Assembly (NCBI RefSeq): GCF_003014485.1
Contig: NZ_PYGA01000017.1
Location: 124,001-188,000, forward strand
Source of the DNA: Murinocardiopsis flavida
GTDB lineage: Bacteria; Actinomycetota; Actinomycetes; Streptosporangiales; Streptosporangiaceae
Length of the DNA stretch: 64,000 nucleotides
Direction of reading: 5' to 3'
This document shows positions 8,003-13,787 of this stretch, piece after piece. The translations under genes and the position numbers were made by a program. The notes beneath the pieces were generated by a model, which worked only from the letters and a program-made list of their open reading frames with translations, did no database searches and was not told where the DNA came from. The first letter of the stretch is position 1, and every line of letters starts with the position of its first letter.

Positions 8003-8481
8003 ACGCCGCGGCCGCCGTGCGGCCCATGACGGTCGCCGATGTCGCGCCGGTCATGGAGCTGGAGCGGTCCCTGTTCCCCAAGGACGCCTGGAGCGAGGGG
8101 ATGCTCCGCGACGAGCTGTCCCACGACTCCCGGTACTACCTGGTGGCGGAGGACCCCGCGGGGCCCGGCATCGTGGGCTACGCGGGCCTGCGGTCGGTCC
8201 CCCCTGAAGGCGACGTGCAGACCATCGCCGTCGACCCTGCCTGGCAGGGCCGCGGCGTCGGGACGCTGCTGCTGGAGGGCCTGCTCGCCGAAGCAGCGGC
8301 GCGCGCGAGCACCGAGGTGTTCCTGGAGGTCCGCGCCGAGAACCGGCGCGCGAAGGACCTCTACACGCGTTTCGGCTTCGTGCAGGTGGGCCTGCGCAAG
8401 GGCTACTACGCCGACGAGGACGCCATTGTGATGTGCCGCTCCGCGCCCAAGCCCGGTGACGCGGACGGGGCGTCCGGGTGA
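7990..8481 (+). CDS. rimI: Ribosomal protein S18-alanine N-acetyltransferase (RimI-like GNAT)
   Basis: The GNAT fold is clear: [18 protein letters not shown] opens it, and [19 protein letters not shown] is the acetyl-CoA pyrophosphate loop. [17 protein letters not shown] follows, with the conserved NxxAxxxYxxxGF pattern. In bacteria RimI acetylates the N-terminus of ribosomal protein S18 and is regularly placed between tsaB and tsaD. The GTG at 7990 has an AAGAAGG site 7 bases upstream. A second GTG at 7999 would make a 4-base overlap with the tsaB stop and is the alternative. Confidence 0.88.
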
Positions 8482-8593
8482 GCCCGGGCTCCGCCGCGCA
8501 CGGCGCCCAGGGCGGGAGTGGCGACCGGCCCCGCCCCGCCGCCGCACACGACGACGCGCCCGCCGATCGGGCGCCTGCGAACGGGAAGACGCG

Positions 8594-9634
8594 ATGAGCA
8601 CCTATGACCTGCCGCTGATCCTGGGGATCGAGACCTCCTGCGACGAGACCGGGGCCGCCCTGGTGCGCGGCTGCGAACTCCTGGGCGACGACGTGGCGTC
8701 CAGCGTCGACGAGCACGCCCGGTTCGGCGGCGTCGTCCCCGAGGTCGCGAGCCGCGCGCACCTGGAGGCCATGACCCCCACCGTGCGGCGGGCGCTCGAC
8801 TCCGCCGGGGTGCGGCTCGCCGACGTCGACGCGATCGCCGTCACGGCGGGGCCCGGCCTGGCCGGTGCGCTGCTGGTCGGTGTCTCGGCCGCGAAGGCCT
8901 ACGCCTACGCGGCCGGAAAGCCGCTGTACGGGGTCAACCACCTGGTCGGGCACGTGGCGGTCGACCAGTTGGAGCACGGCCCGGTGCCGAAGCCGGCCGT
9001 CGCGCTGCTGGTGTCGGGCGGGCACACGTCGCTGCTGCTGGTCCGCGACCTCGCCACCGACGTCGTCCAGCTCGGCGACACCGTCGACGACGCCGCCGGT
9101 GAGGCGTACGACAAGGTGGCGCGGCTGCTGGGGCTGCCCTACCCGGGCGGCCCGCCCATCGACGCCGCTGCCGCCGGGGGCGACCCCTCGGCGATCCGCT
9201 TCCCGCGCGGCAAGTGGGGCGACGGCAGCTTCGACTTCTCGTTCTCCGGGCTCAAGACCGCCGTCGCCCGCTGGGTGGAGGACGCCGACCGCAGCGGCGC
9301 CGCGTTGTCGGTGCCCGACGTCGCCGCGGCGTTCCAGGAGGCGGTCGTCGACGTGCTCACCGCGAAGGCGGTCGACGCCTGCCGCGCCCACGGGGTGCGG
9401 ACCCTCATCGTCAGCGGCGGGGTGGCGGCGAACTCCCGGCTGCGCGCCCTCGCCGCGCAGCGGTGCGAGGCGGCGGGGATCGAACTCCGGGTGCCGCGCC
9501 CGCGCCTGTGCACCGACAACGGCGCCATGATCGCCGCGCTGGGCGCCGAGGTCGTCGCCGCCGGCCTCCCGCCGTCGCCCCTCTCCCTGGCGACCGACAC
9601 GTCCCTCCCGGTCGGCCAGCCACTGGCCGGCTGA
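8594..9634 (+). CDS. tsaD: tRNA N6-adenosine threonylcarbamoyltransferase TsaD
   Basis: TsaD transfers the threonylcarbamoyl group from its adenylate to A37 of tRNA. The 346-residue protein begins [12 protein letters not shown], the ATP-binding ASKHA strand. It carries [16 protein letters not shown] and NHLVGHVA, whose histidines bind the catalytic iron, then [10 protein letters not shown] and [12 protein letters not shown]. All family motifs are intact. The start ATGAGCACC is preceded by GGGAAG. A gap of 112 bases separates it from rimI, wider than elsewhere in this operon. Confidence 0.95.
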
Positions 9635-9798: not shown

Positions 9799-12117
9799 CT
9801 ACTCGTCGTCCTCGTCGTCCTCGACGGCGGCGGCGCGCTTCTTCTTCTTGCCGTCGCGGCCGGGGCGCAGGAGGGCCTCGGCCAGGGCGAGCATGGTCTC
9901 CTCCAGGGAGGCGAGCCGCTTGGTGACGTCGTCGTGCGAGGTCTCGACGGCCTCGCTGATGGTCTCCTCGAACTCGTGGCGGTCGGGGCGCGCCCGCAGC
10001 TCGGTGAGGAGCGGCTCGAGGGCGTCGACCAGGCGCTGATCGATCGCGTCGAGGCGGTCGGAGTTGTCGATCACCGGCCGGTCGACCAGCTCGGTCAGGC
10101 GCCGGTGCACCTCGCTGACCTCAAGGGAGGCGGGGAGCTGGCCGAGGCGCTGGTTCAGCGACTCCAGCCGGTCGTCAAGGGCCTCCAGGCGGCCGTCGAC
10201 ACCGTCGAACTGGCCGTCGACCCCCGTGACGCGCCCTTCGATGCCGTCGAGGCGGCCGTTCAGGCCCTCGAACCGGCCTTCGACGCCCTCGAAACTGCCC
10301 TCGAAGTGCCCCTCGAAGGTGTCGAAGCGGTCGGCGAGCCGCCCGATGTTGTGCTCGAACCGGTTGTTGACCGCCTCGATGTGCGCGTCGACCTTGCCGG
10401 TCAGTTCGCGGTCCTGGCGGTCGAACCGCTCCTCGACGGCGGCGCGGAGCTGCTCCAGGCGTTCGATCTGGGCGGTGTGCCGCTCCTCGCTCTTCGCGGC
10501 GCTGGACTCGGCGTTCTCCGCGAGGGAGGCGGCGGCCAGCTCGTGGTTGTGCTCGTCGCGCTCACGCACCTCGGCCCGCTGGAGTTCGAGTTGCTCGTGC
10601 AGCTCACTGAGCTGCTGGCGGACGTGCCCGCGCAGTTCGTTCAGCTTCTCGTCGGTGGACTCGCCCATGGTGGCGAGCACTCCGCTGACGTCCGCGACAG
10701 CGGCGGTGGCCTCGGCGTGGTTCTCCTCGGCCTGGGTGCCGAGGAACTCGGCGCTCTCGGCGACCTTCGCCGTGAGCTGCTCGCGGTCCGCCTCGGCCCG
10801 CTCGCCGAGTGTGCGCACACCGTCGGCGATGGACTCGCCGAGGCCGGTGCGGGCCTCGCCCAGCGCCGCGGTGGCGGCGTCGTGGCGCTCCGCTGCCTTC
10901 GCGGCGGATTCGGCGTGCCGCTCGTCGGCGCGGGTGTCGAGCGACCGGACGCCGTCGGCGATCGCGCCGTCGACGCGGGTGCCGGTGTCGTCGAGCTTGG
11001 TGGTGAGTTCGTCCTGGGCGGTGTCGATGCGCGCGGTGAGGTCCTGGCCGGCGGTGTCGAGCTTGGTGGTGAGTTCGTCCTGGGCGGTGCCGATGCGCGC
11101 GGTGAGGTCCTGGCCGGCCGTATCGATCCGGGCGGCGAGGTCGTCCTGCGCAGTGGTGAGCCCGGCGGTCAGCCCGTCGCGGGTCGTGCCCAGCTCGGCG
11201 GTGAGCTCCTCCTTGGCGCTGTCGAGCCGCGCCGTGAGGGTCTCGCTGTTCTCGCCCAGCGTGGCGGCCAGCCCTTCGTGGGCCGCGCCGACCTTGGCCG
11301 CCAGCTCCTCCTGCGTGCTGTCGAGCTTCGCGGTGAGTGTGCCGTTCGCCTCGTCGATGCGCGACGTGAGCGCGTCGTGGCGGCCGCCGAACTCGGCGAG
11401 GACGGCGTCGCGGTGCTCCTCCGCGAGTGCGGCGAGCGCCTCGCGGTGCTCGCGCCGCTGCCGCTCCGCGGCCTCCCCTGCCTCGGAGATCGCGGTGCCC
11501 AGCGACTCGCGCGCCTCGGCGAGGGCAGCGGCCGCGGACTCGGTGCGCTCCTCGGAGCGCTCCATGGTCTCCTTGTGCTGGGCGGCGAGCCGTTCGTTGA
11601 CGCCGGTGAGCGAGTGCTCCAGCGCCTCGGTGCGCGCCTTCAGCGCCTCCATGGCCGCGTCGATGCCGTTGAACCGGGTCTCCAGGTCGTCGGCGACCTC
11701 CTGGACCCGCTCGCCGAGGGCGTCGACCTTCCCTGCGCTGCGGGCCGTGGTGTCGGCGATGCTCTGCAAGCGGTTCAGCACGGTGGGCAGGTCCGAGAGG
11801 GGCTTGACCCGGTCGCCGACCTTCTCTATGTGCTCGGCGAGCGTCTCGGCCCACTCGGGCGGGCGCGCGGCGAGGTCGTCGACCTGGCCCTGGACGGCGG
11901 TCACGGACTCGGTGAGGGCGGTGAACTCGCGCTCGCGGAACTCCCTGAGCAACCACTCCATGCCTTCGAGCCGCTGCCGCATCTCCTCGCTGACCGCGCC
12001 CTGCGACTTCTGCTCGGAGATCTGGTCCTGCGCCGCACGTGAGAGGAGGTCCCGCATGCGGTCGGAGATCCCGGTCTGACCTCCCGCGTTCAGGAAGTTG
12101 TGGTTGGTCTGTTCCAC
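9799..12117 (-). CDS. Large coiled-coil protein with hendecad and heptad repeats
   Basis: The GTG start has a perfect AAAGGAG site 7 bases before it and gives 772 residues. After a conserved-looking head (VEQTNHNFLNAGG...) the chain is almost wholly helical. In the middle, at least twelve 11-residue repeats follow each other without a gap, of the form LTARIDTAGQD / LTTKLDTAGQD. Towards the C-terminus, eight or more 7-residue units follow, such as RFEGLNG and RLDGIEG. It ends in a KKKK patch and an acidic EDDEDDE tail. There is no signal peptide or membrane segment. Hendecad coiled coils are typical of filament-forming actinobacterial proteins (Scy/FilP type), so a cytoskeletal or scaffold role is a reasonable inference. 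No sequence family was recognised. Confidence 0.8.
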   Translation of the reverse strand: MEQTNHNFLNAGGQTGISDRMRDLLSRAAQDQISEQKSQGAVSEEMRQRLEGMEWLLREFREREFTALTESVTAVQGQVDDLAARPPEWAETLAEHIEKVGDRVKPLSDLPTVLNRLQSIADTTARSAGKVDALGERVQEVADDLETRFNGIDAAMEALKARTEALEHSLTGVNERLAAQHKETMERSEERTESAAAALAEARESLGTAISEAGEAAERQRREHREALAALAEEHRDAVLAEFGGRHDALTSRIDEANGTLTAKLDSTQEELAAKVGAAHEGLAATLGENSETLTARLDSAKEELTAELGTTRDGLTAGLTTAQDDLAARIDTAGQDLTARIGTAQDELTTKLDTAGQDLTARIDTAQDELTTKLDDTGTRVDGAIADGVRSLDTRADERHAESAAKAAERHDAATAALGEARTGLGESIADGVRTLGERAEADREQLTAKVAESAEFLGTQAEENHAEATAAVADVSGVLATMGESTDEKLNELRGHVRQQLSELHEQLELQRAEVRERDEHNHELAAASLAENAESSAAKSEERHTAQIERLEQLRAAVEERFDRQDRELTGKVDAHIEAVNNRFEHNIGRLADRFDTFEGHFEGSFEGVEGRFEGLNGRLDGIEGRVTGVDGQFDGVDGRLEALDDRLESLNQRLGQLPASLEVSEVHRRLTELVDRPVIDNSDRLDAIDQRLVDALEPLLTELRARPDRHEFEETISEAVETSHDDVTKRLASLEETMLALAEALLRPGRDGKKKKRAAAVEDDEDDE
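10990..11121. repeat. Two near-identical 66-bp direct repeats inside the coiled-coil gene
   Basis: Units 10990-11055 and 11056-11121 differ at two positions out of 66. Each unit encodes two 11-residue repeats (22 codons), so gain or loss of a unit keeps the frame. The near identity points to a recent duplication, or to conversion, inside a protein whose other repeats have diverged. Confidence 0.85.
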
Positions 12118-12497
12118 CGAGTGCTCCTTTGAAGTGCGATGCCCTCGGTCCGTTCGGGCGGACGGAGGCGGACGGAGGTGAAGGGGTCTCGAAGGGCTCC
12201 GGCGGGCGGAGTCGGGGGGTCGGCGGATCGGGGGAACCACGTCGACTCGCGCATTGCTCACGGCAACGGTGCGCCTACGTGGAGTAGGACTGCGGGTCGT
12301 GGCGGTCGGTCGTGGATCCGGCGTTCCGCCGACCGGAACCGAGCCCCGATAGAGCCGTCGCCGGGAAAAGGGGATAAGGGCCCAGCGGGCTCAGTGTAAC
12401 GACAACCCTTCGACAGGCCCGTGGTGATGGGCGAACTCGTGGATTGCGCCCCTTCGGCACGGGTGCGCCGCTGTGCCGCCGATGCGCGGGATGCGGG
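12118..12497. other. Intergenic region upstream of the coiled-coil gene
   Basis: These 380 bases separate the coiled-coil gene from the methyltransferase gene on the same strand. The ribosome-binding site AAAGGAG of the coiled-coil gene is at its left edge (minus strand). I see no convincing promoter boxes, RNA structure or small gene in the rest. Confidence 0.4.
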
Positions 12498-13787
12498 TCA
12501 ATCTCCCGGTTCGCCGGCGTCCGCCGGACTCCTCCCCTGGGGGCCTGTGACCTCGGAACACAGCAGGTAGACCGGCCGCTCGGCGATCCGGGTGAGCACC
12601 ACGACCACCGAGTCGGGGCCGGCGGGCCGGAGATCGCGGCGCAGCTTCTCCACATCGACGGCCGAGCCGCGTTTCTTAATCGTTACGTTCCCGGCCTGCC
12701 GTGCGCGCACCGCCGCGCGGAGCCGTTTCAGCGAAAAGGGCGCCGTCTCCTCGATCGCGTAAGCGCGGCTGAACGGAGTGCCGACGAGCGTGTCGGAGGT
12801 GATGTAGGCGATCCGCGGGTCGAGCAGGCCGCCGTCGACCTCGGCCGCCGCCTCGGCCACGAGGTGCGCGCGGATCACCGCGCCGTCGGGCTCGTACAGG
12901 TAGCGGCCCGGTGCGCGCACTTCGGGTGCGCCGAGCCCGGGGTCGGCGGTCAGGGTCGCGGGCGGCGCCCCGGCGCGCTCGCCGGACTCCGCGGGGAGGA
13001 GGGTCGCGCGGCGCCCGGATCCGGCAAGTGAGCCGAACCACAGCGCCGCCTCCTTCACGTCGCCGCCGACCGAGACCCACTCGGCGTCGGCGCCCTCGGG
13101 GACGAGGTCGTGCGGGATGCCGGGGGCCGCTTTCACGCACGCGGCGGGGGCGCTCTGCGCGATGTCGACAACGGCGGCCCACGGCGGCGAGTACGCGTGC
13201 GGGTCGAAGATCCGGCCGCGCGCCCCCCGCCGCGCGGGGTCGCAGAACACCGCGTCGTAGTCGCCGCGGCCCAGCGCGGCGTCGCCTTCGCGCACCCGCG
13301 CGGATCCGGACAGGCCCAGCGCCTCGATGTTCGCCTCGGCGACCGCGACGGTGAAGGGGTCGCGGTCGACGCCTTCGACGGTGAGTCCGGCTTCGGCCAG
13401 CGCGACGAGGTCGGCGCCGATGCCGCAGCACAGGTCGGCCACGCGCGCCCCGCGGGGCAGCGCCGCGGCGATGCGCGCGGCGCGGTGGTCGGCGACGCTG
13501 CGGCGGGTGGCCTGCTCCAGCCCTGCCGGCGTGAAGTACATGCGCGCCGCGCGCGGGCCGAACTTGCGCGCGGCGCGGCCCCGCAGCCGCGCCTGGGTGA
13601 GCGCCGCCGCGACGAGGTCGGCCCGCGGCACCTCCAGGTCGTCCTCGCCGGGGAGCGGGCGGCTCCGCAGCCGGGTCGCGACGGCGAGCGGATCGGCGTC
13701 GATCTCGGCCGGATCCGCGGCGTCGAGCAGCCGGTCTCCCGCAGGTGTGCGCAGCGCCCGGAATGCCGGGAGGCTTCCGCCAGTCAC
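12498..13787 (-). CDS. Class I SAM methyltransferase with THUMP-like C-terminal domain
   Basis: The 429-residue protein contains the SAM-binding motif VADLCCGIGADLVALAEAG near residue 115. An acidic strand end (VEGVDRDP) and an F-C-DPARR motif replace the usual NPPY, as in RNA or protein methyltransferases of this actinobacterial family. The last 90 residues (KLRAAVRARQAGNVTIKKRG, then a beta-rich end) match the THUMP-like domain usually annotated here, which suggests RNA binding. The GTG start has a GGGGGA site. It is divergent from groES across a 192-base regulatory region, a pairing common in actinobacteria. The substrate is not known. Confidence 0.8.
   Translation of the reverse strand: MTGGSLPAFRALRTPAGDRLLDAADPAEIDADPLAVATRLRSRPLPGEDDLEVPRADLVAAALTQARLRGRAARKFGPRAARMYFTPAGLEQATRRSVADHRAARIAAALPRGARVADLCCGIGADLVALAEAGLTVEGVDRDPFTVAVAEANIEALGLSGSARVREGDAALGRGDYDAVFCDPARRGARGRIFDPHAYSPPWAAVVDIAQSAPAACVKAAPGIPHDLVPEGADAEWVSVGGDVKEAALWFGSLAGSGRRATLLPAESGERAGAPPATLTADPGLGAPEVRAPGRYLYEPDGAVIRAHLVAEAAAEVDGGLLDPRIAYITSDTLVGTPFSRAYAIEETAPFSLKRLRAAVRARQAGNVTIKKRGSAVDVEKLRRDLRPAGPDSVVVVLTRIAERPVYLLCSEVTGPQGRSPADAGEPGD

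Follow-up and report, generated by a model that had tools for sequence, protein, structure and literature searches.

The DivIVA-like superfamily, which comprises DivIVA, FilP, Scy and PolyDIV, is defined in the available part of Martinez-Goikoetxea and Lupas (PMC9858780) by the motif GYDxxEVD ahead of a dimeric heptad coiled coil, its members having one N-terminal domain in common, and the same part describes small core residues, above all alanine, as permitting dimers of hendecads (11-residue repeats). According to the accessible part of a second study (PMC4255298), Scy diverges fast, best-hit searches for it are unreliable, and Scy orthologues are found beside filP outside Streptomyces. Here we describe a 772-residue hendecad protein of Murinocardiopsis flavida, encoded on the minus strand at positions 9799-12117 of a 64,000-nucleotide stretch of contig NZ_PYGA01000017.1 (hereafter the window), in which two conserved end segments, the N-cap and the C-cap, flank a long rod. 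The rod protein belongs to a real, well-conserved family without a name, and no publication on such a two-capped rod family was recognised by title or abstract within the open-licence literature. We judge it somewhat better than an even bet that the protein is a cytosolic coiled-coil scaffold with working ends, the rod serving as a length-tolerant, phase-locked spacer. Its two caps, continuous helix, phase-keeping insertions and deletions (indels), distribution, synteny and losses were obtained by computation, and its parts lie as follows.

9799-12117, minus strand: coding sequence of the two-capped coiled-coil rod protein (translation; start and Shine-Dalgarno sequence compared over 25 loci).
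12124-12130, minus strand: Shine-Dalgarno sequence AAAGGAG, read as CTCCTTT on the plus strand (sequence).
11773-12117, minus strand: N-cap, residues 1-115 (22 invariant columns over 25 loci; AlphaFold model of residues 1-200).
10975-11370, minus strand: 12 consecutive hendecads, residues 250-381, within the continuous predicted helix 124-469 (periodicity and AlphaFold).
10138-10317, minus strand: glycine-rich heptads, residues 601-660 (period 3.48 across residues 600-690).
9847-10137, minus strand: helical C-terminal region spanning residues 661-757; it contains the C-cap LxxLEExMLALAEALLRP, residues 735-752 (13 invariant columns over 25 loci).
9802-9846, minus strand: tail, residues 758-772, a basic patch followed by the acidic EDDEDDE (sequence).

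The homologue set was built from the window protein with 24 homologues (the 25 loci) and from named records, namely the best 80 loci of the 236 that encode a relative. From the latter 79 proteins were taken, with L087 set aside because it did not show the motif used; of the 79, L081 and L133 run past the end of their stretch and were not counted as full-length. In the resulting full-length set (n = 102, some genomes counted twice), with proteins of 270-850 amino acids, the N-cap motif SDRMRELLxRAAQD and the C-cap LEETMLALAEALLRP were both present in 102/102, window included; because the homologues had been found via the N-terminus or the whole window protein, it is the count for the C-cap that carries information. 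The 13 invariant columns of the C-terminal region make up the block LxxLEExxLxLAEALLRP. The N-cap is laid out as a disordered, conserved leader, a helix at residues 15-84, a conserved RPPEW break and a second helix at 88-108. The leader (residues 1-14, positions 12076-12117), predicted to be disordered and of the NHNFLxxGGQ type, is kept in many of the order's homologues, hinting at a short motif for binding. Raw codon counts over six close pairs gave 44 synonymous against 7 amino-acid changes in the N-cap and 290 against 267 in the rod (residues 116-590); from these counts, together with those after residue 590 given below, the N-cap is almost frozen and the C-terminal region is intermediate overall, its last block being kept.

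The 12 hendecads carry Leu at one position (12/12) and Ile, Leu or Val four residues on (12/12), with the third core position mostly Ala or Thr (11/12), and about nine glycine-rich heptads come after the hendecads. Hydrophobic periodicity exceeded the maximum of 500 shuffles in each of three segments: residues 250-435 (period 3.67, power 28.0 vs 10.7), 435-600 (3.66, 16.7 vs 11.0) and 600-690 (3.48, 12.7 vs 8.9). The full-length AlphaFold model (63 sequences) placed helices at residues 17-84, 88-103, 124-469, 477-599, 642-659, 667-678, 686-708 and 713-750, with a mean predicted local distance difference test score (pLDDT) of 70.5 and a predicted template modelling score (pTM) of 0.26; the model of residues 1-200 (51 sequences) gave helices at 15-84, 88-108 and 112-199, with a mean pLDDT of 85.0 and a pTM of 0.35. 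As a coiled coil, residues 124-599 alone would be about 70 nm long (estimated at 0.15 nm per residue). The glycine-rich residues 600-641 were non-helical in the monomer model, at a pLDDT of about 40, so that the support for a coiled coil there comes from the periodicity; this segment may be a hinge, or may need a partner chain. The PHROGs family phrog_5553, which has no assigned function, matches at residues 601-660 (9.4e-14). Foldseek found no match in the PDB for either of the two models, that of the N-cap and the full-length one, a result of little weight for long helices, and the PDB profile matches of the N-cap (noelin, designed coils and 14-3-3, all at E>=0.02) were treated as noise.

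Much of what the original prediction had read from the letters agrees with these results. Its 12 gapless hendecads followed by heptads are borne out by the periodicity and the continuous helices that it required by the two long ones of the model (124-469 and 477-599), while the repeat it quoted, LTARIDTAGQD, holds as a consensus of the hendecads and as a literal string is absent from the protein. The KKKK patch and the EDDEDDE tail are there in the translated sequence. No membrane span was detected, in line with its cytosolic placement (highest 19-residue Kyte-Doolittle mean, 0.84), and the net charge of the protein is -76. A tail like EDDEDDE is found in most Nocardiopsis-type homologues, and the Actinomadura-type ones have short tails without it.

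Rod length changed among homologues in steps of 7, 11, 18 and 22 residues. In a survey of 97 distinct proteins, with 65 nearest pairs at >=60% identity and rod indels of 5-60 residues, 84/92 rod indels came to within 0.8 residue of a whole number of 3.6-residue turns, where uniform lengths would give 39% (binomial p about 1e-25, with a crude uniform-length null and non-independent pairs); under different gap costs the count was 91/98. Since the alignment of repeats favours in-register gaps, pairs with a single rod gap, whose size is independent of gap placement, were also examined. The 122 such pairs, many of which reflect one common event, had gaps of 11 (86 pairs), 7 (18), 22 (6), 10 (5) and 36 residues (2), and of 14, 18, 44, 62 and 66 residues (one pair each). 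At least 60% likeness to a neighbouring segment was seen in just 15/97 inserted segments, so that recent duplication of units does not explain everything. On the simplest reading of these comparisons, the ends would do the work and the rod would have to stay one in-phase continuous helix whose length carries little weight.

Relatives with the same two ends were detected outside the window's family. Profile A1, built from residues 1-121 of the 25 loci, matched 53/394 genomes of a class sample; the 40 strongest matches (E below 1e-50, M. flavida included) all fell in the window's family, and 13 were weak (E 3e-7 to 8e-4). Eleven of these 13 (L153-L158, L160, L161 and L163-L165) combine the N-cap core with a WWRPG or WWKPG ending. 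A C-cap-like block of the DEAVLALAEALL type aligns in 10/10 aligned relatives; pattern search shows it in the eleventh, L164, and, used by itself, in 7/11. Their N-cap core, S/A-D/E-RMQ-x-L-L/M ... EQR, is that of the window protein and their C-cap resembles its own; what differs is a long acidic stretch after the C-cap, ending in WWRPG or WWKPG, and the locus. A motif of what we take to be MoeZ lies 141-571 bases past the WW motif on the same strand in 11/11, and one of what is presumably Ku lies upstream in 10/11, L163 beginning near a contig end; both labels are motif-based. The C-terminal motif WW(R/K)PG(D/G), after a long acidic stretch and close upstream of the MoeZ-type gene, is itself conserved. 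Neither tsaD nor groEL was found at any of the 13 weak-match loci; segments resembling the caps are present in L159, at a different locus, and the contig of L162 ends before its C-terminus. In the M. flavida genome, a profile of ten distant relatives matched the rod gene only (N-part E=1.9e-12; C-part 7.6e-9, a match that extends beyond the stop codon). The retention of both caps alongside another tail in the distant relatives counts in favour of the scaffold described below.

A combined N-cap profile (A6), which in a control matched 10/10 known family-bearing and 0/2 Scy-bearing genomes, was applied to a phylum sample, where 4/396 genomes matched, M. flavida included. The three others (L214, L215 and L216; E 1e-6 to 8e-5) lie outside the class and, read in frame, show EQRxL-type N-cap-like segments of the RAVDRQIAEQRALREALNDLR type near the starts of long helical-looking frames. 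The strict RM pattern was absent in all three, and L215, the one complete frame, had no C-cap-like block by pattern and no WWRPG, the frames of L214 and L216 being incomplete. They are candidate distant relatives from other classes of the phylum. Among the matches in this sample there is no other genome from the window's family, nor any from the MoeZ-type families, and the sample seems to have contained few such genomes.

In the order, profile A1 matched 269/297 genomes, with a single match in all but six, which had two. Among the best 80 of 236 loci, the named records with the family include Nocardiopsis, Streptomonospora, Thermobifida, Marinactinospora, Allosalinactinospora and Actinomadura. 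One record (L095) is titled Glycomyces fuscus and its homologue is 95% identical to a Nocardiopsis one (L102), so the title may be wrong. The rod gene appears to be single-copy in M. flavida, where its other DNA matches are short pieces and the protein search gave one match. It starts with GTG and encodes 772 amino acids plus a stop codon, AGGAG precedes the start codon in 22/25 loci (window counted in), and third codon positions carry most of the changes among homologues of 9799-12117. Two long plus-strand open reading frames run antisense to it (9934-12042 and 10064-12079; 702 and 671 amino acids); they were taken as by-products of codon composition, the codon changes of homologues fitting the minus frame. 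The location of the gene among core genes, remarked on from the start, proved to be a conserved synteny with tsaD, a THUMP-like methyltransferase gene and groES. The methyltransferase adjoins the rod gene on the same strand in 23/24 homologous loci, groES lies within the fetched stretch in 22/24 and tsaD in 20/24, contig ends cutting two of the four without it. The immediate neighbours in the window are:

8456-9634, plus strand: tsaD, the convergent neighbour, open reading frame as listed (TIGR03723, 419 bits, cut-off 296.1; the match begins at residue 55 of the frame).
12498-13787, minus strand: THUMP-like S-adenosylmethionine (SAM) methyltransferase, the upstream neighbour, open reading frame as listed (PF18096, 74.1 bits, cut-off 26).

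In the scaffold that we favour, two chains would pair along the hendecad rod into a coiled coil; we infer that the protein dimerises, most likely in parallel. The small hendecad core (Ala or Thr in 11/12), taken together with what the available part of PMC9858780 says of hendecad dimers, supports a dimeric rod. The N-cap and the C-cap would then bind partners or each other, the rod would act as a spacer free in length and held to helical phase, and rods might polymerise end to end, cap to cap. With unit length so variable and the end motifs conserved, strands assembled end to end, or a tether that joins two partners, are a better fit than a molecular ruler or a filament with lateral stagger. 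Filament formation by the rod protein is possible, and a part in hyphal growth or cell organisation may be proposed. A bolder extension, that the family is a new actinomycete cytoskeletal system in which cap-to-cap strands of arbitrary unit length organise growth or the cytoplasm where the strict model sees no Scy, is offered as a doubtful one, with perhaps a minor share of the probability.

Several observations weigh against the scaffold and its phase-locked spacer. Confidence in the full-length AlphaFold model is modest (mean pLDDT 70.5, pTM 0.26), and monomer models are uninformative on oligomers. Out of helical phase are 8/92 indels and the single gaps of 10 residues, and the indel pattern could be partly mutational, through duplication of repeat units, or an effect of aligning repeats. 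Codons after residue 590 are less constrained than those of the N-cap (44 synonymous vs 24 amino-acid changes in the six close pairs). In the order, 28/297 genomes gave no match to profile A1. Twelve of these 28 were probed via the methyltransferase, 11 regions were fetched and nine, from six genera, also had tsaD; the rod gene was gone from its site in 9/9 of these testable genomes, six having their flanking matches separated by about 80-140 bases and three carrying other reading frames there, and is thus dispensable in some lineages. The neighbours tsaD, methyltransferase and groESL offer no functional link, and since the distant relatives are located elsewhere, near MoeZ, the synteny is no evidence of function.

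Among the alternatives, a chromosome- or DNA-associated protein, SMC-like or nucleoid, bound via the KKKK/RR patch, is improbable. It would account for the basic patch that precedes the acidic tail and for a weak coiled-coil match to the SMC model TIGR02168, which at 40.4 bits falls far short of the cut-off of 567; with no SMC head domain among the Pfam matches at E<=1, SMC membership was rejected. The long basic-acidic tail is missing in the Actinomadura-type homologues, and the net charge of -76 also speaks against DNA binding.

The search of NCBIfam gave no model above its cut-off for the rod protein, and the three Pfam models that exceeded theirs were built for repeats or coiled coils in other proteins, so that no curated family names it, in keeping with the original prediction. 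They are apolipoprotein (PF01442, 102.5 vs 90 bits), Baculo_PEP_C (PF04513, 49.9 vs 38) and NPV_P10 (PF05531, 30.4 vs 29.8), and automatic annotation may well name the gene after one of them. The baculovirus coiled-coil models Baculo_PEP_C and NPV_P10 score on residues 317-381 and 117-178, and are taken as a repeat resemblance on coiled-coil stretches. The apolipoprotein match raises the prospect of a coat on lipid surfaces through 11-residue amphipathic repeats, or of a membrane contact by the N-cap, which we regard as a rather remote prospect. The best sequence match in the PDB is ApoA-IV (E=7e-6), amphipathic helical repeats of 11 residues are common to rod protein and apolipoproteins A1/A4/E, and a lipid-binding discriminant was passed by 6/21 windows of residues 87-124 (an estimate). 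However, it was passed by 0/425 windows of the rod (124-250, 250-381 and 384-600), compared with 33-35/201 for ApoA-IV at the same two helix angles. Unlike the apolipoproteins, the rod protein has conserved caps, is less hydrophobic (large hydrophobic residues make up 18% of the hendecads vs 25% of ApoA-IV) and has a rod of net negative segments (-11, -15 and -21). The apolipoprotein model did not match the window N-cap at E<=1, 7/25 N-caps matching weakly (best 0.0027), and PF01442 may score any 11-residue helical repeat. We read the rod match as a common 11-residue periodicity. A lipid coat is weakened for the rod by its composition and by the discriminant, and the N-cap may still touch membranes.

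About equally remote is a rod that is largely neutral, low-complexity and dispensable structural filler, with caps serving only solubility or dimerisation. The fast drift of the rod (290 synonymous against 267 amino-acid changes) and the gene losses at the site would suit it, whereas the presence of the family in 269/297 genomes of the order, an N-cap that is almost frozen and a helical phase that is mostly kept would not.

Membership of the Scy/FilP/DivIVA class, suggested by the original prediction on account of the hendecads, was refuted by the missing GYDxxEVD motif and the absent DivIVA and Scy profile matches, and a divergent polar-growth protein of this kind is very improbable. Its appeal lies in the hendecad rod with small core residues as in Scy/FilP (period 3.67; Leu, Ile/Leu/Val and Ala/Thr), the lack of a membrane span, the actinobacterial host and the conserved N-terminal segment ahead of the rod, together with the fast divergence of Scy and the unreliable best-hit searches reported in the accessible part of PMC4255298; hendecads alone are not diagnostic. 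GYD occurred in 0/25 of the window protein and its 24 homologues and in 1/79 of the named-record homologues (L090, within the acidic tail), none of the protein's 15 matches in Pfam at E<=1 was DivIVA (PF05103), and Scy (NF041483) was unmatched in NCBIfam at E<=0.1. The M. flavida genome has four other frames with GYD, to which the rod protein had a best BLASTP match of E=0.24; they are probably one DivIVA, two FilP-like proteins, one of which scores under the Pfam cut-off, and one PolyDIV-like protein. The DivIVA lies on contig C19 and the FilP-like frames at C3:245467 and C35:26467. A 537-residue frame at C3:285891-286547 (L181, L185 and L186) has several tandem matches to the DivIVA model, and looks like a PolyDIV protein as described in the available part of PMC9858780. 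The Scy model, whose cut-off is 1040 bits, reached at best 20.3 bits in M. flavida, at other loci. It passed its cut-off in 27/296 class genomes, all of one genus, and 0/27 of these were among the 53 matched by profile A1; given the Scy orthologues outside Streptomyces reported in the accessible part of PMC4255298, so strict a model may miss divergent ones. A phage tail protein, which had been named as a possible disproof, is rejected, with no tblastn match at 1e-5 among 50,697 phage records, weak PHROGs tail-family matches (best 3.1e-4) and stronger PHROGs matches, led by phrog_5553, without an assigned function.

Intermediate-filament-like rods such as crescentin and lamin share with the rod protein a head-rod-tail plan and a long coiled coil. 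In the rod protein the length of the rod is variable, whereas packing with a lateral stagger would presumably call for a conserved one. With FilP and Scy, as they are presented in the available part of PMC9858780, it shares an actinobacterial long-hendecad rod with small core residues, a conserved N-terminal segment and a variable rod length; it differs from them in having neither GYDxxEVD nor a DivIVA or Scy profile match, and in its second conserved cap at the C-terminus. The natural series of rod lengths in whole repeats offers a direct test of whether fixed length or helical phase alone matters in bacterial rod proteins. Roughly nine in ten of the order's sampled genomes carry the family, which has relatives in other parts of the class and perhaps beyond it in the phylum; to DivIVA, FilP, Scy and PolyDIV it adds a second rod design, one with two caps and apparently independent of theirs.

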